From a virus, in the IMG/VR virus record IMGVR_UViG_3300027793_000055, positions 1 to 64,000 of that record: 64,000 nucleotides of DNA; one strand, given 5' to 3'. This document shows positions 11,446-62,605 of the stretch, piece after piece. Each line of letters begins with the position of its first letter. The first letter of the stretch is position 1. A program made the translations under genes and the position numbers. Below the pieces are notes generated by a model. That model did no database searches and was not told the DNA's origin. It was given only the letters and a program-made list of their open reading frames with translations.

Positions 11446-12843
11446 TCAATTTGTTTCTTTCTTATCTACCGGATCGCTACTTTTAAATTGCTGATATTTT
11501 TCTTTGAGTTTATTTAATTGCTTTTTCGAAGCCTTCTTTTCAATTTCTTCTTTGCTATCAGTTGTTGGTTCAAACACTTTAATTTCAGCACAACTGGTAT
11601 CCATAAAAATAGGACATATAAGACCATCTGAACCAAAACGGTTTTTAGCAATCAACATACGACCAGCATTATTCTTTTTATCGTCGAGAGTACGTGATAC
11701 AGTAAAAATAAAGTCAGCAACGAAACACTTATTAAATGCTTCTGATATACTTTCAAGCGTATTTACTTCTGCATTTAGTCCACTTCTATTTGTTTGGGAA
11801 GCCGTCCAAATAGGACAACCTGTTTCTTTTGCAAGACCACGCAATTCTTCGTATATTGATTCGAGTTCTTCACGCTTTTCTTTACGACTTGAAACTGGCT
11901 TTAACAAATCACCGTAGTCAACAATAATCATACCAACTTGAATACCACGCTGTTTCAACTTTTCAAGATGGTTACGAATTGTACCAGTTGAGGCACTTTT
12001 TGTTGGATACTCTTTGATAATCAGTTTGCCTTTTACATCTTTAATCTTTTCAAAGATTACGTCTTTCTTGGCGTGCAAGGCATCAAGTGGAATTCCGGTG
12101 ATTGCACTATCATAACGTAAGCCAATTGTTTTGTCATCTAGTTCTAGTGTATAATGTACAACAGTTTTACCTGCTTTTACTGCTTGTGCACCAAGATGGA
12201 CAAGTACAAATGATTTACCTGCACCAGTTGGTGCAATAACTACTCCTAATTCACCACGACCCAAACCACCACGCATAAATCCATCAAATACATCCCATCC
12301 TGTTGTTACAACATTACGAGCCTTAAGTTCATAACGCTGTTCAAAGTGTTCATCATACGAATAACCAAAGTCACTATTTGTGCCAAGCTTAATTGCATTG
12401 TCAATTAATTGACGAATTTCTTCAAAAGAAGACTGTTTCAAAAGTTCAACACTCTTGATCATCGCTTCTTTTAGTTTTTGCTTCTTACAAAATTCAACTG
12501 AATTTGTTTTCACATACTCATCATCAACAGTATTTGTGTTAGTGATAAACCGTGCATAAAATTCACGAACTTGCTTCTGTAAAGCTTCATTTTCTTCTTC
12601 CATCTCAGAACGAAGAATAGTTTCTACTGTTGCTTGACTTGGATATTTACCAAATTTATTTTTGTAATCAAAGATCTTTTTTGTAAAAAGACGTAGATAC
12701 TTTAATTCAAAAAAATTATAGTCCAATACTTCACCAATTTGGTTGGCAAAGATTGGATCTTGCATAATAAGAAATGCTAATTTTTCCTGAAATTGTTTTC
12801 CAAAAGAAGAAAAATTAGTCTCACCTTGTTCTACTTCAATCAT
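11446..12843 (-). CDS. replicative DNA helicase (DnaB/T4 gp41 type)
   Basis: 465 residues. The N-terminal 150 residues are the helical primase/loader-binding region. The RecA-like core has Walker A GVVIAPTGAGKSF near residue 205, a catalytic Glu in HYTLELDD, Walker B GMIIVDYGDLL and the sensor TASQTNRSG. It unwinds DNA at the fork on the lagging strand, working with the gp61-like primase at 62663-63601. The C-terminal 40 residues are a charged tail. Confidence 0.93.
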   Translation of the reverse strand: MIEVEQGETNFSSFGKQFQEKLAFLIMQDPIFANQIGEVLDYNFFELKYLRLFTKKIFDYKNKFGKYPSQATVETILRSEMEEENEALQKQVREFYARFITNTNTVDDEYVKTNSVEFCKKQKLKEAMIKSVELLKQSSFEEIRQLIDNAIKLGTNSDFGYSYDEHFEQRYELKARNVVTTGWDVFDGFMRGGLGRGELGVVIAPTGAGKSFVLVHLGAQAVKAGKTVVHYTLELDDKTIGLRYDSAITGIPLDALHAKKDVIFEKIKDVKGKLIIKEYPTKSASTGTIRNHLEKLKQRGIQVGMIIVDYGDLLKPVSSRKEKREELESIYEELRGLAKETGCPIWTASQTNRSGLNAEVNTLESISEAFNKCFVADFIFTVSRTLDDKKNNAGRMLIAKNRFGSDGLICPIFMDTSCAEIKVFEPTTDSKEEIEKKASKKQLNKLKEKYQQFKSSDPVDKKETN

Positions 12844-13088: not shown

Positions 13089-14066
13089 TCACAAACCTTT
13101 GTGATCTGCAATGATCTTCTTTAGGGCAGCATAAAGTTCATCAAATTTAACTTCACCAAAACCATCTTCAATCATCATTTTACGGACTTCTGTTAAGTTA
13201 AATTCTGGATTATAATTATCCAGAGAAAAGTCAACCTTCTTCAAGACCTGATAAGACATATTTGGTGATTTAAGCTGCATCACACTAAAATTAGTATGAA
13301 CCTGTTCTGCTGCATCAAGAATATTCTGAAACAGTTTTAGTTTAGAACCTTCATCAAGTTGTTGCTTGCAGAAATTCAATACATCTTCTGTAATATATTC
13401 TTTTTCTTCAACAAGAAAAGGAATACGTTTTGCAATTGTTGTTAGACCAAGACCCTTTACACCATCAATATTATCTGATGGATCGCCAGCCATTGCACGG
13501 GCAATAGCAAAGTTATTTGGGTGAATACCAAATTCTTCCAAAACAGATTTAGTTGTCATTACCTGATTCTGAATTGGCCTGAATAGGACAGTATTTTTAT
13601 CACAAAGTTGAATAAAGTCTTTGTCTGAGGATACAATTACTTTGTCCCAATCTTTGAACTTTTCGTGTTGAGCAACAACCGAAATAAGATCATCTGCTTC
13701 TACTTCCCTTTCCAGAAACTGCATAATTGGCATACAGTTGAGGTATTCAATAGTGCGAAGTTGTTGCCAAACTTTATTATTAATCTCTTCTGATTCTGTA
13801 AGATTCTTAACATCTCGATTAAGACGAATCGGCTTACGACCATCCTTGTAGTCCTTAATAATTAACTTTTTCTTTTTACTGCCGCCGGGTCCATCCCAAA
13901 CAACAACAATACCGTTTGGTTTAACATCACGAATTAACTTCTGTAACGACTTAAAATAGCCCTTCAAGCCTCCAAGTGGTTGTCCGTGCGTCGACATAGA
14001 GGGGTCAACAACATAGTTGCGGATAAAGAGATTTAGAGAGTCAATAATCATCAGACGTTTTGGCAT
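13089..14066 (-). CDS. 5'-3' exonuclease / RNase H (FEN-like, T4 rnh type)
   Basis: 325 residues from the ATG at 14066, which has GAGG 7 nt upstream; an in-frame ATG at 14078 has none. PIN/FEN fold: MIIDSLNLFIRNY at the start, GIVVVWDGPGGSKK, LEREVEADDLIS, VIVSSDKDFIQLC and AMAGDPSDNIDGVKGLGL (helix-hairpin-helix). The Asp/Glu residues in these blocks bind the metals. It would remove RNA primers and flaps from lagging-strand fragments, as T4 RNase H does. The gene is preceded by a terminator-like hairpin. Confidence 0.9.
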   Translation of the reverse strand: MPKRLMIIDSLNLFIRNYVVDPSMSTHGQPLGGLKGYFKSLQKLIRDVKPNGIVVVWDGPGGSKKKKLIIKDYKDGRKPIRLNRDVKNLTESEEINNKVWQQLRTIEYLNCMPIMQFLEREVEADDLISVVAQHEKFKDWDKVIVSSDKDFIQLCDKNTVLFRPIQNQVMTTKSVLEEFGIHPNNFAIARAMAGDPSDNIDGVKGLGLTTIAKRIPFLVEEKEYITEDVLNFCKQQLDEGSKLKLFQNILDAAEQVHTNFSVMQLKSPNMSYQVLKKVDFSLDNYNPEFNLTEVRKMMIEDGFGEVKFDELYAALKKIIADHKGL

Positions 14067-14078
14067 ATGGTACCTCAT

Positions 14079-14764: not shown

Positions 14765-15260
14765 TTAGATAGCTACAAACTGCATTACTGCAAACTTACC
14801 ATGATGATCTTGACCATAACGATCAAGAAAATGATTGGTAATCATTGATGGTTCACCAACAAGTCCAATCATTTCACGATTACGCATTGTACAAATTTCA
14901 CCGTCATCATTCACATACAAAACCTTTGCAACGCCGGCCTTCTTCAAGGCATGTTGACAAAGAGGACACGGCTTACCATTCTTGTTTTCTCGGGCAGTTG
15001 GTGAAGTCGTGTTATTAAACCGATAAATATAGATTTTTGAACCCTTTGCCTTTTCGCCCAACTTATCCAAAAGATCAATCTCAGCGTGCATCGAACACTT
15101 AAAGACTGACCGGTTCTTGGAATACCGCCTCTGGTTAACACCAAAAGCCAAAGGCTTACCACCAGAAATGGCAAAAGCTACAATCTGATGCTGAAGGGAG
15201 TCATCACGATACTGTGATGCCAGATCTTCAGCGAGGTTCTAGAAATTCAAGATACTTCAT
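14765..15260 (-). CDS. cytidine/dCMP-type deaminase, frame broken near 15230
   Basis: Zinc-dependent deaminase fold: CSMHAEIDLLDKL (zinc His and catalytic Glu), KPCPLCQHALKKAGVAKV (two zinc Cys) and VLYVNDDGEI. Family members deaminate C-containing nucleosides or nucleotides; next to ribonucleotide reductase a dCMP-like role is reasonable. The only start with a good ribosome binding site (AGGAG, 8 nt) is the ATG at 15260, giving MKYLEFLEPR and then TGA at 15230-15228. The deaminase frame is entered by moving +1 at or just before that stop (continuing EDLASQYRDD, without its own ATG). Either a programmed +1 frameshift, a sequence error, or a start at TTG 15151 would explain it. Confidence 0.7.
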
Positions 15261-15366: not shown

Positions 15367-16497
15367 TCACTCACCATTTTCATCTGATTCTGATGAATCC
15401 TGTTTATCATAGAATTGTGAGGCTTCTCCTTCTCTTTTATCAAACTTAAGAATAACTTCTTCATTCAACAATTCGAATATTCGCTCACGAAACTTTGGTT
15501 CTTTCATTTTAGCTGCCCAATCAGCAGAACGGAATTTTTCACTTGAACCATCACTATGTTCAAGTGTATTCCAAGCACCAACAGTTAGGCTTGGTGATGA
15601 TTTAATCGCTTCAAATAGTGATTCATCATCAAGAACACCAACACGATCTGCCCACATAATCTGGAATTCACAAGAACGACCCTGTGTACCAAATCGCGAT
15701 TTTTCTAATCGTGCTTTTACTAGTGAACCAATACGAAACCCTTTTGAATCATTAACAAAACTATCTTTTGCTTTTGAGCCAGTTAGCCAAATACGAAGAC
15801 TATAGGCATATGCTGGTGATTTACCGCCAGGTGTAAAAAACTTTTGTGACTGAGTCAGATACTTGGCGTTTCCTTCTGCTGCTAGATTTAATTTAAGCTG
15901 ATTAAGAATGAGTAGTGTTGATTTGCTTTCGGCAATTGGAATTGTTAATTTCGAGAAACCTTTTGAAAGAATACGTGCTTTCATGGCCATAGAAGACTGT
16001 GGATTAAAATCACCCTCAACATCTGTGACTGTTGGTGTCATCGCCAAAGAATCCCAAATAAACAAAAACCGGTTTCCACCATTCTTCAAAAGTTCTTCAA
16101 TTTGTTCTAAAACAGCTTCTACTGAAATTGCCTGAATATAAAGAAGGTTTTCTAGATCACAGCCAGCATTTTGCAAAAACTGTGGATCAATAGCACTTTC
16201 ACTATCAAAATACACCGGTACAATACCCATTTTTTGGGCATTTGCAGCTACTTGTGCTGCCATATAGCTTTTACCAGTTGCTTCTTCACCAGCAATTTCA
16301 CTAATTTTACCAACAGGAATACCGGCTTTTTTACCACGGCAAATAATTGAATCTAGCCAAGTTGATCCGGTTGATATCCACTCTGTTACTTCTGTAGGAT
16401 TTTCTTCTTCTAGATCATGAGCAACATTCATACCTGCTTTTTTATTCAGCAAGGTTCTCATTTCACTAATTGATAGTTTTCCGGCCTTAAGACCCAT
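15367..16497 (-). CDS. uvsX: UvsX/RecA-like recombinase
   Basis: 376 residues. RecA core with Walker A IAGEEATGKSYMA near residue 65, VYFDSESAID with the catalytic Glu, Walker B RFLFIWDSLAM and a loop-2 region ending STLLILNQLKL. It forms filaments on single-stranded DNA and drives strand exchange for recombination-dependent replication, helped by gp32. Acidic C-terminal tail (SSESDENGE). It follows gp32 after a terminator that probably lets part of the transcripts through. Confidence 0.92.
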   Translation of the reverse strand: MGLKAGKLSISEMRTLLNKKAGMNVAHDLEEENPTEVTEWISTGSTWLDSIICRGKKAGIPVGKISEIAGEEATGKSYMAAQVAANAQKMGIVPVYFDSESAIDPQFLQNAGCDLENLLYIQAISVEAVLEQIEELLKNGGNRFLFIWDSLAMTPTVTDVEGDFNPQSSMAMKARILSKGFSKLTIPIAESKSTLLILNQLKLNLAAEGNAKYLTQSQKFFTPGGKSPAYAYSLRIWLTGSKAKDSFVNDSKGFRIGSLVKARLEKSRFGTQGRSCEFQIMWADRVGVLDDESLFEAIKSSPSLTVGAWNTLEHSDGSSEKFRSADWAAKMKEPKFRERIFELLNEEVILKFDKREGEASQFYDKQDSSESDENGE

Positions 16498-16569: not shown

Positions 16570-17313
16570 TCAATCTCGTAGAGATTTAAGGGCTGCATCG
16601 ACACTTGATGGTTCATCGAATTTTGTTACACCATCACTGTCATCAGCTTCTGCTGATTCTGCTCCGCTAAGGAACTGTTCAAGCAGAACTTTAATTTCTT
16701 CTACAGTACGACGCTTGTGTAGCTTATCAAAATCTGGAATACGGTCTAGAATATCTTTACAAGAGTCTGGATCCATATCTTTACACATCGGACTTGAACG
16801 ACGCTTCAAAGTAAGTTTTGTTTCTGGAAACTTCTTGCCAGATTTCTTACCATATTCTAGATCAATATCTACGCCTTCTTCAAGATCTGTTACATCGCCG
16901 TATTCTGGGTTTAGCACAGTTTCGATAAGGAACTGATAGGTTGACTTGCTATATCCCCAAATTTTGGGTCCATCCTTTTCATCACCACGAACTAGGATTG
17001 GTGAGAAGAAACGTTGCTTCTTGACCATTTTTGAAGCTTGTTCACGGCTTTCCTCATCTTTATCGTTATAGAGCTTTTGCACAAAATCACAAATTGGGCA
17101 AGGATCGCCAAAGTTTCCCTTTGGACATAGGATACTTTCCTTACCAAATCCATAATGGAAGAAGAAAGATTTAAACGGATCACCATCACCGGTTGGAAGA
17201 ATTCGGATTGTTTGAACACCTTCTTGTGGGGACCAGAATTTAGCATTTTGCTGTTTGCCACCACCTTTTAGGGCATCTAGTTTATTACGCATTTTTGAAA
17301 TATCAATAGCCAT
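16570..17313 (-). CDS. gp32: single-stranded DNA-binding protein (T4 gp32-like)
   Basis: 247 residues. The zinc site H-x9-C-x8-C-x2-C near residues 53-75 (ILCPKGNFGDPCPIC) is the gp32 hallmark. Basic N-terminus (cooperativity domain) and acidic C-terminus (AESAEADDSDG) match the T4 layout; it is shorter than T4 gp32 (301). It coats single-stranded DNA and organises UvsX, helicase and polymerase. The 5' leader has a CGGTC/GACCG hairpin and a second small hairpin before the ribosome binding site, where T4 gp32 has its autogenous operator. Confidence 0.9.
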   Translation of the reverse strand: MAIDISKMRNKLDALKGGGKQQNAKFWSPQEGVQTIRILPTGDGDPFKSFFFHYGFGKESILCPKGNFGDPCPICDFVQKLYNDKDEESREQASKMVKKQRFFSPILVRGDEKDGPKIWGYSKSTYQFLIETVLNPEYGDVTDLEEGVDIDLEYGKKSGKKFPETKLTLKRRSSPMCKDMDPDSCKDILDRIPDFDKLHKRRTVEEIKVLLEQFLSGAESAEADDSDGVTKFDEPSSVDAALKSLRD

Positions 17314-17379: not shown

Positions 17380-17408
17380 ATTCTAGCACAGATCACTACT
17401 TGTGTCAA
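17380..17408 (-). promoter_or_regulatory. sigma70-type promoter P4 (gp32)
   Basis: Minus strand: TTGACA, 17 bp, TGC-extended TAGAAT. The -35 hexamer overlaps the stop codon of the FtsZ-like gene. Drives gp32 and downstream genes. Confidence 0.82.
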
Positions 17409-18247
17409 GTATCGGTATTTACATTTTGTATAAAATGTGTATTAGCTTCAACGTATACGTAATTTTCTTTCCACTCATTTGCGTATACACCAAAGCCGCC
17501 ATCTAAATCATCGGCCAATTTCTCTCTTACTTGATTTTTAATTTTAGTAAGAAGTTTGCCATCTTTTTCTAGAACAGCTTTGCTTATTGAAAAATAATAA
17601 AATTTATTTGTTGTGTTTGTTAGATTGTAAAATAGTGTCTCTTTGCCAGAAGCCGGATCTGACAGACCAATTGTGCTGATCCTAGTTATAGCAGACTCTT
17701 CCTGATCTGTCAAGATCACCGGTTCTGAATTTTTACAGACATTAATCATATGCATTGTCGATGCAATCAGTGAATTAATTTTTTTATGATACATCGAAAT
17801 TGGCGTATCTCCAATTATATTTTCCATCAATACATTATCTACAACATATAGACGGTTAAATAATCCAGAACGTGCATACTCCTGAAAAACATTGAATGTT
17901 ATTTTTTCTTGCAGAAACTTTTTTTGTGAGAGCAAACTAAGATCTGGTCTTATATAAAGCACAGTTATTTGACATTTTTTTAACTGTTCTAAAATAGAAA
18001 GTGATGCACCGGTAATATCACCACCACCAACCATTATAAAAAGCAATTCATCTTCTATAGAAGTAAAAAATGACTTAAGATTTGGGCATTTTTCTTCATA
18101 TATCTCTGGTGATTTATATTTAGGCAATTGCCAGTTTTTATCACTCTTTTCTAGATCTGTACCTATTTTATAAATATCATATTGTGGATATTGCTGAAAC
18201 TCTTCAGCTATTCTTATGCCACCATTTCCCAATCCGAGTACGAACAT
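17405..18247 (-). CDS. FtsZ/tubulin-like protein
   Basis: 280 residues. The order of elements follows FtsZ: GLGNGGIRIAEEF at residues 5-17 (nucleotide loop 1), FIMVGGGDITGASLSI at 70-85 in place of GGGTGTGA, and QITVLYIRP at 93-101 (FtsZ: LTVAVVTRP). Next come a helix, LYVVDNVLM at 133-141 (FtsZ: IVIPNDRLL) and a C-terminal sandwich domain. The phosphate loop is altered (DIT for TGT) and the catalytic T7 loop is not obvious, so GTPase activity is uncertain. Jumbo phages use the tubulin PhuZ to position DNA; this protein is shorter and more FtsZ-like. It could polymerise or interfere with host division. It lies between gp32 and DNA polymerase. Confidence 0.72.
   Translation of the reverse strand: MFVLGLGNGGIRIAEEFQQYPQYDIYKIGTDLEKSDKNWQLPKYKSPEIYEEKCPNLKSFFTSIEDELLFIMVGGGDITGASLSILEQLKKCQITVLYIRPDLSLLSQKKFLQEKITFNVFQEYARSGLFNRLYVVDNVLMENIIGDTPISMYHKKINSLIASTMHMINVCKNSEPVILTDQEESAITRISTIGLSDPASGKETLFYNLTNTTNKFYYFSISKAVLEKDGKLLTKIKNQVREKLADDLDGGFGVYANEWKENYVYVEANTHFIQNVNTDT
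17685..17713 (-). promoter_or_regulatory. possible intragenic sigma70 promoter
   Basis: TTGACA, 17 bp, TGC-extended TATAAC inside the FtsZ-like gene, about 380 nt upstream of gp32. It could add gp32 transcription; chance cannot be excluded. Confidence 0.45.
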
Positions 18248-18258
18248 TTATAAATCCT

Positions 18259-19431
18259 TTAGCTAATCTTGAGCATGCTTCCGAAATCTTGTCCGCGAGA
18301 TAAGTTAACAGGGAAAACAGCAAGATCGTTGCTAGCAAATATGCTATATATATCTCTAATGACTTCTGATTCATCATTGGTAACATCCAAAAATACGGCA
18401 TCATGAATGATAAAGCTAACAAAACTTTTCCTTTTATCTAAATATGCATCAATTTTTAAAACTTGTCTTAAAACAAGATCTGCAGTTGTAGATTGTACTA
18501 AATAATTTAATGCGTGAAAAGGATCTGCTTCTATTTTTCTACCATATGGATTCTGGATATACTTTCCATCATAGTATTTATCCAGCACCGATTTGATATC
18601 AAAAAGTTCTGAGAATCTATCATATTCCGGTTTTCTAGAACCATAGAGCCAAGCAAATAATCCCTTCTTTGCTTCATCTCTTGTGATATTTAGTTTTTTA
18701 GAATTCCATTCATGAATGTCTTCTTTTGGCTGATCTTTACCGCTCAGAGCTAGAAGAGTTCTTGCTTCTGCAGCATTATAATCTAATTCAATAAAATGAT
18801 CATTTGTTGGTTTGACAATTGATCTATAGTCACTATTCATGGTTAAAATAGGAAAACTATTTGGTTGTGTTGTTAATCTACCAGTTTTAGTACCAAACTG
18901 ATTGTAACTAATACTCTTAGTATGATCTTTGATCGATCTAATAAATTCTTTTTTCTTTAAGATCTTATTTGTATTTAATTTTAGATCTAAATTAAGATCT
19001 CTAGATCTGATTTTAGCGATCAGTTTTTCGAGTGTTAAGTAGAAAAAATAGTTTTCTGGTTTTTTATAGTTTTCAAAAACGGTGTCGACGATCTGTGACT
19101 TAATTTCGCAATATTCTAGTAAAAAATGTTCCGGAACTAAATCAAAAAAACAGTTATCGTTTAAATCGATTTTTGATTCAACAAATGACCGATAAAAGGC
19201 ATCAAGTTTTTTATTCTGTATCGTTAGTTTATTCTTAAGATGCTCTGGACAGATCTGTTCAATCGATTTGCCCTCTGCCCATAAATGTCCAAATAAAACA
19301 TTTCCGTCATCAAAGGACGGATTATATTTCCAAGTTTTGTCTAAGTTTGTTGGAAATCTATTGTAATAGATTTTACCATTGGTATAAATTCCTTTACACC
19401 AATCTTTGTCATCTAAAGTGATAAAAGACAT
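18259..19431 (-). CDS. DNA polymerase, family A catalytic core
   Basis: 390 residues. Family A palm and fingers: TKTGRLTTQ at 181-189, motif A FIELDYNAAEAR with Asp217, motif B RDEAKKGLFAWLYG at 251-264, QSTTAD at 313-318 and motif C IIHDAVFLDV with Asp344. No DEDD 3'-5' exonuclease or 5' nuclease domain is present, so proofreading must come from another protein or be absent. Motif C has HDA rather than the usual HDE. T4 itself uses a family B polymerase (gp43), so this replacement is notable. It is preceded by promoter P5 inside the upstream gene. Confidence 0.85.
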   Translation of the reverse strand: MSFITLDDKDWCKGIYTNGKIYYNRFPTNLDKTWKYNPSFDDGNVLFGHLWAEGKSIEQICPEHLKNKLTIQNKKLDAFYRSFVESKIDLNDNCFFDLVPEHFLLEYCEIKSQIVDTVFENYKKPENYFFYLTLEKLIAKIRSRDLNLDLKLNTNKILKKKEFIRSIKDHTKSISYNQFGTKTGRLTTQPNSFPILTMNSDYRSIVKPTNDHFIELDYNAAEARTLLALSGKDQPKEDIHEWNSKKLNITRDEAKKGLFAWLYGSRKPEYDRFSELFDIKSVLDKYYDGKYIQNPYGRKIEADPFHALNYLVQSTTADLVLRQVLKIDAYLDKRKSFVSFIIHDAVFLDVTNDESEVIRDIYSIFASNDLAVFPVNLSRGQDFGSMLKIS

Positions 19432-19432
19432 T

Positions 19433-20662
19433 CTAGATCCAATTTAAATTAAAATTTCTATTTTTTTTGCTAGCGGCCGATGGACGGCTAGTGATCGGTC
19501 TAATATACCTTAGTGCAGCATCCGTGTCAAGCCTTTCCTTGAGCATAATAAACGTTTTTTCTATATTACGGAAAGTGCTTTGATCCCAATTTAAATTATT
19601 TTCTCTTCCCTTGAGAAAAACATATGTTGATAAAATTACTCGATCAAATTCTTTATTATCAATCAATTCATTTAAGTCTAAGAATAATATATTAATTGGC
19701 GTATGTTTAATGACAGTTATATCACCACAAATATTAAATTCAGGCTTATTTTTATTGCTATTTGAAGAAACATATGTATTATAAAACTGAACCATATATG
19801 TTTTCAATAGGACTAGATCGTAGCTATCAGCTGTTATAAAGTTGGTTTTATAAAAAGAGTCTTGATTTATATTATATTTTTGCATATATGGCATCATAGC
19901 CGGTGAATCAATATCTGCCCACAGTCTCCACGGAATTTGTTTATCTACAAAAAACCCAAATTTAGTAGCTGTTTTTTTAAAAATTGCGAAGTTTGGATCT
20001 TGTAAAAAAGTGTTATATTTTTTTTCATCATCGCCCGGATCTGAACTGTTAACATCGAAGCACAAACCGGTTATAAGTGGATCCGCCAGTCTGGAAACTA
20101 TAAAACTAGAATACAGAAATGGCACAAATGGCATTAATCCATCTAGAAATGCCAAGAACTGTTTTGTAAATTGATTAAAATCGGTTATAATAATATTATT
20201 TTTAGTTATATCATCAGCAAATTGTTTATAAATTTCATTTAGATAATAAAAATATAATCTACCACTGTTAACGTCATTGTTTTTGATTTTAATATCTTGA
20301 AAAACTCCACCAGCTTTTAACTTATTAATTTTTTTTAAATAATCCCAATAAGAAATTAATTCTTTATAGGCATCGTGCACAAAATTATGTAATACTATTT
20401 GTTTTGGTCCAAGAGAAACTATTTTTGTTTGTGATTCACTTATTATAACCGGTATATTATTTAAGTCTACACGGCCATAATGTTGCTTTTCATATAATAT
20501 GTTGATTGGTTTATTTTCTGTTACTAATGGTTGTGCAAAAGCTTTAATTTCATAAAGCTTTTCCTGATAAAAAGCACTAAGTGCGGTTGAAGAATTATTA
20601 CCGGTTGGATTAGAAGTCGTTACCAGAAAATTATCTTTTTTGTTGATATCAATTTTTTTCAT
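19433..20662 (-). CDS. hypothetical protein, baseplate-linked
   Basis: 409 residues, Asn/Lys/Tyr-rich, with a Ser/Asn-rich start and an RPSAASKKNRN tail. No motif recognised. ATGA overlap with the large hub-like gene suggests a shared role in the baseplate or tail. The last 60 codons contain promoter P5 for the polymerase gene. Confidence 0.65.
   Translation of the reverse strand: MKKIDINKKDNFLVTTSNPTGNNSSTALSAFYQEKLYEIKAFAQPLVTENKPINILYEKQHYGRVDLNNIPVIISESQTKIVSLGPKQIVLHNFVHDAYKELISYWDYLKKINKLKAGGVFQDIKIKNNDVNSGRLYFYYLNEIYKQFADDITKNNIIITDFNQFTKQFLAFLDGLMPFVPFLYSSFIVSRLADPLITGLCFDVNSSDPGDDEKKYNTFLQDPNFAIFKKTATKFGFFVDKQIPWRLWADIDSPAMMPYMQKYNINQDSFYKTNFITADSYDLVLLKTYMVQFYNTYVSSNSNKNKPEFNICGDITVIKHTPINILFLDLNELIDNKEFDRVILSTYVFLKGRENNLNWDQSTFRNIEKTFIMLKERLDTDAALRYIRPITSRPSAASKKNRNFNLNWI
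19502..19530 (-). promoter_or_regulatory. sigma70-type promoter P5 (polymerase)
   Basis: Minus strand: TTGACA, 17 bp, TATATT, located within the 3' coding end of the 409-residue gene, 70 nt upstream of the polymerase start. It separates the early polymerase from the late tail genes. Confidence 0.75.
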
Positions 20663-61251: not shown

Positions 61252-61905
61252 TTATTTTTTAATCCAACCCTGTTCAATATACAATGGTAGCTCTTCTTCG
61301 TCAATCTCTTTTTCTTCTATGCTCATTTCTTGAACAACCTGAAATGTCTTGTGGATATCGCCAGCCATTACATAATCGTGACCAGTAAAAGCAGAAATAT
61401 CATGATCACCATGATCCATAACATATCCCATATCTGTTAGAACACCAGATACAGAGCCGTGATAAAGAGCAATATTGATCTTTGATGGATCACTAATTTT
61501 CTGCCAATTTCCTTCATCAAAAATAGAAAGAACATTAAGAGTAATTTGTTCACTAATAGATACTTCACCTGAATCTTTTAAAAGATGAAGTTGGTTGTGT
61601 TGTAATGCTTGTACAATTGGTGTAATTGCATCCTGACGACCGCCATTTTTAAGGTTACCGTCGTGATTACCCAATAAGACATATGTGGGTGCAATATCTG
61701 CCAGATTCTTAAGGAATTCTGTTGCAAGTTCAAAGAATTCTGGACTTAATTGTGTTTTGGTATGTGCAATATCACCACAATGAACAATATAATCTACTTT
61801 TTGTTCACGTAGCTTGCTATAAATTTGTGAGAAAATCTCACGATATTCTTTATGAAATTTTAGGTTTCTTATGTGGGTGTCCGATAGATGGCAGATCTTA
61901 ATCAT
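61252..61905 (-). CDS. gp47-like nuclease N-terminal part; piece A of split gene
   Basis: 217 residues. All metallophosphoesterase motifs of SbcD/gp47 are present: HLSDTHIRN (Asp9, His11), HCGDIAH (Asp45), LLGNHDG (Asn80, His81), LYHGSVSG (His149) and MAGDIHK (His185). It then ends EEELPLYIEQGWIKK and stops, where the family would continue into a YPGSTVQQNFGE strand. That continuation is found at residue 15 of the 57946-60540 product. GGAG before the ATG lies in the end of the GIY-YIG gene. Active once paired with piece B. Confidence 0.9.
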   Translation of the reverse strand: MIKICHLSDTHIRNLKFHKEYREIFSQIYSKLREQKVDYIVHCGDIAHTKTQLSPEFFELATEFLKNLADIAPTYVLLGNHDGNLKNGGRQDAITPIVQALQHNQLHLLKDSGEVSISEQITLNVLSIFDEGNWQKISDPSKINIALYHGSVSGVLTDMGYVMDHGDHDISAFTGHDYVMAGDIHKTFQVVQEMSIEEKEIDEEELPLYIEQGWIKK

Positions 61906-62605
61906 CTTTTCTCCATATTTTATTATTTACAATATTCGAAATATTTGTGGCACAAGTATCAAAAATTAATGCTATATCTTTTAGCATCATTCCTTCTTTC
62001 GCCAATCTTCTTATTTCTTCTACTTTTTCCCAATTCAATTTAGAATGAGGGTTTTTTTCACCTTTTTTGCCATTACTGATTTTTATTTTTGTTTCTTCGC
62101 TTCTCTTACCTGTTGAATAAATTCCTTTTTTACCTTTATTCCAAGGAATTTGTCCTTTTTTAAATTTTGTTTTTATTTTATTTTTATGTTCGTCTGTTAG
62201 ATTTTTACCTTTATTCCAAGGATCCTTACCGAACATTCCATTATTTTCTACTACTTTCCCTTCTGAAATTATCTTTTTTGTTTCTTCGCTATGTTTTCCA
62301 TAAGAACCACCACCTTTTAGATTAAAACCTTTATCTAAATTTCTTGTTTCATAAAATATTATGAATCTATCTTCTTCTTCATCTAATTCTTTTTTGGAAT
62401 AACATTCTTTTAATATTTCCCACTCAAAATTTTCAATTCCATATTTTTTTATGGCGCTGTGAAAATAGTCATATTTAGGATTTTTACTTGCGTGTTTATG
62501 TTCGGAAACTCTTCTTGCTAAATGTTTAACGGTTTGTCCTATATAAAGTCTTCCGTCTATTTTTAAAGTTGCTTTATAAATTATTCCATATATTAATTTG
62601 CTCAT
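61898..62605 (-). CDS. GIY-YIG homing endonuclease
   Basis: 235 residues. GIIYKATLKIDGRLYIGQTV is the GIY-YIG motif (residues 7-26), with the catalytic Arg in LARRVSEH and a later Glu. The middle has NUMOD-type repeats (GMFGKDPWNKGK, GQIPWNKGKKG) and the end a helix-turn-helix (KLNWEKVEEIRRLAKEGM...ISNIV). It lies between primase and gp47 and overlaps the gp47 start by 8 nt, as free-standing T4 seg-type genes do. Confidence 0.9.
   Translation of the reverse strand: MSKLIYGIIYKATLKIDGRLYIGQTVKHLARRVSEHKHASKNPKYDYFHSAIKKYGIENFEWEILKECYSKKELDEEEDRFIIFYETRNLDKGFNLKGGGSYGKHSEETKKIISEGKVVENNGMFGKDPWNKGKNLTDEHKNKIKTKFKKGQIPWNKGKKGIYSTGKRSEETKIKISNGKKGEKNPHSKLNWEKVEEIRRLAKEGMMLKDIALIFDTCATNISNIVNNKIWRKDD

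Follow-up and report, generated by a model that had tools for sequence, protein, structure and literature searches.

Tubulin-like proteins of phages have been regarded as characteristic of the Chimalliviridae and of a handful of other large phages (PMC11835377). A 2010 analysis states that every protein of the FtsZ-tubulin superfamily characterised so far forms filaments (PMC2875224). According to the phiKZ TubZ paper, loop T7, the base of helix H8 and strand S9 form the interface between subunits (PMC3678025). Here we analysed a window of 64,000 nucleotides, the whole stretch taken from a viral record of 187,750 bases (IMGVR_UViG_3300027793_000055), which encodes a predicted tubulin-fold protein of a T4-like phage. 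We refer to this protein and its relatives as family A, and to a second, canonical tubulin of T4-like viral contigs as family B. Family A appears to be a branch of the tubulin superfamily from which the catalytic coupling has been removed. As far as we have searched, its genomic context is unreported in the open-licence PMC literature, in which we found no description of family A or B. By description, it can be likened to FtsZl1, another divergent branch with unrecognisable filament-forming elements, for which an unusual filament was likewise left open; unlike family A, FtsZl1 is cellular and stands beside vWA and OmpA genes (PMC2875224, Makarova and Koonin 2010).

The gene and its replication operon

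A preliminary description of this DNA had proposed an FtsZ/tubulin-like protein next to gp32 and a DNA polymerase, without giving a strand. The open reading frame is real and lies on the minus strand; the plus strand over the same positions and in the same frame contains many stops. The motifs quoted at the time are all present in the translation, namely the G5-x-G7 loop, GGGDITGA (residues 74-81), ITVLYIRP (94-101) and LYVVDNVLM (133-141), and both neighbours were recovered with PHROGs profiles. The genes are listed below in operon order, with small open reading frames between the UvsX and exonuclease genes.

19433..20662, minus strand: 409-aa protein without assigned function, upstream of PolA (only phrog_8281, at 0.0012)
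18259..19431, minus strand: family-A DNA polymerase (PolA) domain, 390 aa (phrog_17, 3e-19), 11 bp upstream of the family A gene
17405..18247, minus strand: family A predicted tubulin-fold gene, 280 aa (open reading frame with ATG start and translation; structure model and fold matches)
16570..17313, minus strand: gp32-type SSB (phrog_1192, 4e-23), 91 bp downstream of the family A gene
15367..16497, minus strand: UvsX-like recombinase (phrog_97, 8e-52)
13089..14078, minus strand: exonuclease of the replication operon (phrog_107, 6.5e-26)
11446..12843, minus strand: DnaB-like replicative helicase (phrog_19, 4e-73)

The 409-aa protein recurs in many of the 98 family A loci that we compared. By PHROGs matches, the window also encodes NrdA/NrdB, a major head protein (phrog_138), a portal, a large terminase, gp46 (SbcC)- and gp47-like proteins and a primase, and since these accompany UvsX the initial assignment to a T4-like phage holds. 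The median dN/dS of family A is 0.083 (range 0.032-0.125) in 35 pairs of relatives within identity and dS limits; A is thus a genuine gene on which purifying selection acts.

Two other features of the window deserve mention. A 128-aa open reading frame on the minus strand (14765-15151) has H-A-E and P-C-x-x-C elements and, by eye, is of the cytidine-deaminase type. A homing endonuclease gene (61898-62605, minus; phrog_314, 2e-27) separates the genes for the gp47-like protein and the primase.

Predicted fold, nucleotide site and T7 region

A template-free AlphaFold2 model of the window protein, built from 12 sequences, reached a pLDDT of 90.2 and a pTM of 0.90. A second model, that of a relative 34% identical to it (L010; 53 sequences), reached a pLDDT of 95.6, with the five models between 94.9 and 95.6. 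Foldseek ranked FtsZ (3vo8_B, E 6.9e-14) first for the window model and then TubZ, and VIA-align matched it to CetZ (3zid, Z 24.7, 258 aligned, rmsd 2.9), TubZ (2xka, Z 23.3) and FtsZ (2r6r, Z 22.4), with all matches covering residues 1-280. The model of the relative again matched CetZ (Z 24.6) and TubZ (22.8). Among the viral structures of BFVD, the window model is closest to a protein called FtsZ from an uncultured phage (E 8.8e-13); the PhuZ of phage Noxifer comes lower, at 4.4e-6. The FtsZ-like fold proposed at the outset is thus borne out along the whole chain by matches of two models to FtsZ, TubZ, CetZ and tubulin. Judging from these models, family A has the tubulin/FtsZ-superfamily fold over its full length, including the nucleotide-binding domain, the core helix H7 and the C-terminal domain.

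The evidence for superfamily membership that comes from sequence comparisons is much weaker than that from structure, and partly contrary. The window protein alone matched nothing in Pfam or PHROGs. The Tubulin model PF00091 had no match above cut-off for this protein and none in the window's own record, though it matched in 13 of 14 control genomes. Across 53 family A members, Pfam found Tubulin in five (best 0.0086) and TrkA_N in seven (best 1e-4), with ApbA at 0.0024. A PDB profile search with 12 sequences gave FtsZ as the only match, at E 0.66, and the deeper 53-sequence profile found no FtsZ. The TrkA_N and ApbA matches raise the alternative that A has been mistaken for a tubulin and is in truth an ordinary nucleotide-binding enzyme of the Rossmann type, and the result of the deep profile would suit it. 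A plain Rossmann domain had been set beforehand as the outcome that would speak against the fold call, and it appeared in neither model: tubulin-superfamily chains match both of them over both domains with Z >21, and the 50 PDB rows listed for each are all tubulin, FtsZ, TubZ or CetZ. PhuZ is not among these rows, an absence to which we attach no weight. The two structure models rule against this alternative, which we regard as scarcely credible.

Residue conservation was computed over 139 family A members with less than 90% identity. The elements of interest in the window protein are as follows.

18218..18235, minus strand: T1 glycine loop GLGNGG, residues 5-10 (G5 and G7 in 139/139)
18092..18112, minus strand: SPEIYEE, residues 46-52, helix start after T3 (E51 in 137/139)
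18008..18028, minus strand: altered T4 (phosphate) loop GGGDITG, residues 74-80
17864..17884, minus strand: QEYARSG, residues 122-128, the most conserved stretch, at the end of the helix before S6 (Q122 and R126 in 139/139, S127 in 138/139)
17834..17836, minus strand: N138, probable guanine contact after S6 (130/139)
17774..17776, minus strand: N158, probable guanine contact in H7 (131/139)
17681..17731, minus strand: loop residues 173-189 replacing T7/H8, with D181 and E184 (no helix there in either model)

The T4 loop reads mostly G-x-G-x-I-S-[GA] across the family. The canonical signature GGGTG[ST]G is missing, with G.TG[ST] in none of the 128 distinct family A loops, so that the phosphate loop is indeed as unusual as first noticed. 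As a counterpart of SPEIYEE we presumed the NPEVG of FtsZ. In hhalign alignments, N138 and N158 correspond to N204 and N225 of family B, and we take them to be the equivalents of the guanine-contact Asn pair of beta-tubulin; they occur together in 130/139 members. Because the T1 loop and this Asn pair are kept, A probably still binds a guanine nucleotide. In 7/139 members the two Asn residues are replaced jointly (Leu, Val or Met at 138, Tyr at 158), which looks like a concerted change of the base pocket. Further near-invariant residues are Y98 (138/139) and H166 (136/139). In the window model, helix 108-127 carries the Q122-S127 end. Judging by register, Q122-S127, H166, N169 and R189 should all be found on the side expected for T7.

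The motif NxDxxD/E of the T7 loop is found in 0/139 family A members. Helix H8, expected between H7 and S7, is missing from the models of the window protein and of L010, and in the latter the stretch concerned has a block pLDDT of 94-98. These results agree with the earlier remark that the catalytic loop is unclear. All 139 members have the same number of residues between N158 and R189. The T7 register was derived from hhalign and residue counting, and all registers were counted. Residues 181 and 184, which we assume to be the T7 acid positions, counting from FtsZ numbering, are D181 and E184 in the window protein. The T7-loop Asp whose presence had been in question would be D181, and across the family the acid pair occurs in that register only twice (2/139, in the window protein and in L001). 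The same pair is found two residues later, at 183/186, in 40/139 members, which brings the two registers together to 42/139. Any [DE]xx[DE] pattern in the loop occurs in 45/139, against 15.8 expected from shuffled loops; this weaker acidic pattern is thus over-represented, partly through shared descent. Given D181/E184 in two proteins and the 183/186 pair in 40, some family A members may keep activity.

Taken from the alignments and both models, the conserved T7 acids and H8, by which a tubulin subunit completes the GTPase site of its neighbour, are lost family-wide. This loss, as read from sequences and models, weighs against a classical filament, and an unusual one could still form. In PhuZ and TubZ, a C-terminal tail engages the next subunit; both models of family A, built as monomers, end about 10 residues past the last strand and show no long tail there.

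Compared with FtsZ and CetZ, family A shares the fold along the whole chain, the glycine T1 loop and the Asn after S6, but it has only ~16% identity to them, an altered T4 loop and neither NxDxxD/E nor H8. It further differs from both by its link to PolA and SSB, and no division genes were seen beside it. With TubZ and PhuZ it has in common the fold and its presence on mobile elements, whereas it lacks their conserved T7 acids and H8 and belongs to the replication operon of a T4-like phage. With 280 aa, it is also shorter than PhuZ, as had been supposed, the phiKZ protein being 327 aa long by CDS coordinates.

Distribution and linkage with the polymerase

At least 548 relatives of family A were found in IMG/VR (from at least 599 pattern matches, of which 80 were kept). 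In 50,697 records of named phages, no relative was detected with three members as queries: tblastn with the window protein gave nothing useful, L013 retrieved only Campylobacter phage fragments with E 0.1 or worse, and L010 retrieved nothing. In three records (G018, G020 and G029; loci L191-L193), one in-frame stop falls within the match to family A. A search of genome contigs for a bacterial host gave a single match, locus L100, in a chromosome-length record of a WOR-3 MAG (CP070664.1). The phage segment there carries PolA, A and SSB and is bounded by stretches of N, beyond which the genes look bacterial; as this is probably a scaffolding error, L100 gives no host.

Linkage was assessed in 98 family A loci, some of which share a contig. 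PolA lies upstream of A in 89 of the 90 loci with at least 700 bp of upstream room, the exception having ~750 bp upstream (L091), and A is followed by SSB in all 92 loci with room downstream. PolA is within 400 bp of A in 80 of the 89 loci, and in 30 of these 80 it runs into the estimated A start; in the other nine it is farther away, up to 1,953 bp. Many loci have recurrent insertions that could hold small genes, of ~300 bp on the PolA side of A and of ~300-470 bp on its SSB side. We also used a sample anchored on PolA, which avoids selecting on A, made of the best 80 of 563 PolA relatives, with some contigs shared between the two samples. A was encoded and co-inherited with the polymerase, as expected of a polymerase accessory, in 79 of these 80 loci, the remaining contig being too short to tell. 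The polymerase looks active, since most of 79 full-length PolA proteins have recognisable motifs A (76 proteins), C (75) and B (70). No PolA-A fusion was seen. Distant PolA genes without A nearby were found in Immutovirus and in six contigs with family B only (~1.5 kb on each side).

Eight long records with family A (G000, G002, G003, G004, G016, G017, G018 and G020), whose completeness is not certified, were surveyed for replication genes. A family-B polymerase and the gp45 clamp (Pfam and PHROGs) gave no match in 8/8, with positive T4 controls, although a very divergent clamp would escape such a search. The bacterial beta clamp likewise gave no match in 8/8, with a positive control in a bacterial record (G001). 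For the gp44 clamp loader, these eight records gave only weak model matches, the best at 1.9e-8. As far as sequence profiles can tell, PolA is the sole detectable replicative polymerase of the phage.

Family B proteins are 340-365 aa long (L103:1030-2121 minus, P0002; L108-L187) and number 107 relatives in IMG/VR, with no match among named phages. The 364-aa protein of G002 matches Pfam Tubulin at 3e-6, and its profile matches FtsZ and CetZ at ~9e-10. The T4 signature GGGTGS and the Asp pair D249/D252 after H7 are present in 69/69 proteins, whereas A has neither as a family. Profile alignments of the two families are collinear, with E values of 0.035 and 0.0025, but the hhalign probabilities are just 1.5% and 11.9%. 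For one neighbour of family B, a reading as the gp55 sigma factor found no PHROGs match. Family A co-occurs in 6 of 17 B contigs. When 17 records were searched with the B profile, three matched, all known B carriers, and the other 14, including that of the window, gave none. We therefore rejected the idea that A requires family B as its partner; with coexistence in only 6/17 and no detectable B in the window's record, A is not simply the partner of B.

Possible roles of family A

The near-universal link with PolA and SSB points to a role in replication, although gene neighbourhood alone can reflect shared expression timing. Our preferred reading, to which we give slightly less than an even chance, is that A is a nucleotide-binding, tubulin-fold accessory or organiser of the PolA replisome and neither a PhuZ-type spindle nor a division blocker, a function that we infer. 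A would dock on PolA and/or SSB, perhaps via the strictly conserved Q122-R126-S127, H166-N169 and R189. Once docked, it might hold the polymerase on its template or anchor the replication centre, and its nucleotide state would serve as a slow switch and not to drive a filament by hydrolysis. A bolder version has A leave the cytoskeleton altogether and become an obligate replisome subunit, a processivity or anchoring factor of PolA in a large clade of uncultured T4-like viruses with no detectable clamp; we hold this to be unlikely.

The preliminary description had suggested that the protein may build a filament or block host division. Nothing we found supports either role, the T7/H8 elements that render a tubulin-type protofilament catalytic not being conserved and the PolA/SSB link pointing to replication. 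A phage cytoskeletal filament of the PhuZ/TubZ kind, with slow or no hydrolysis, that positions or segregates replicating DNA near the replisome would nevertheless be compatible with the complete tubulin fold and its closeness to TubZ and CetZ, the guanine Asn pair, the acid pairs found in the T7 loop of 42 members and the adjoining replication genes. It is hard to reconcile with the missing H8 and NxDxxD/E motif, which correspond to parts of the phiKZ TubZ interface as described (PMC3678025), with the lack of a long C-terminal tail in the two models and with the presence of the separate, canonical family B tubulin in some of the same genomes. We consider such a filament doubtful, if a serious possibility. 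An FtsZ-type fold that has lost its T7 side would also be the expected look of a one-sided cap, that is, a dominant-negative mimic of FtsZ whose intact nucleotide side would cap or poison the protofilaments of the host. Yet A is tied to PolA and SSB and not to host-takeover genes, and its conservation and dN/dS are those of a core gene, which makes a host-division inhibitor quite improbable.

Families A and B widen the described range of phage tubulins. If the accessory role of A in the PolA replisome is true, a tubulin fold that has kept its guanine pocket, dropped the polymerisation-coupled GTPase and come to be inherited with a DNA polymerase would represent a new use of the fold, and a replisome role, if proven, would raise the novelty of A further. 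The finding also opens to testing the question of how genomes of ~190 kb are copied in T4-like viruses in which neither gp43 nor gp45 is detectable. The viral machinery for DNA copying may have recruited a protein of the cytoskeletal type.
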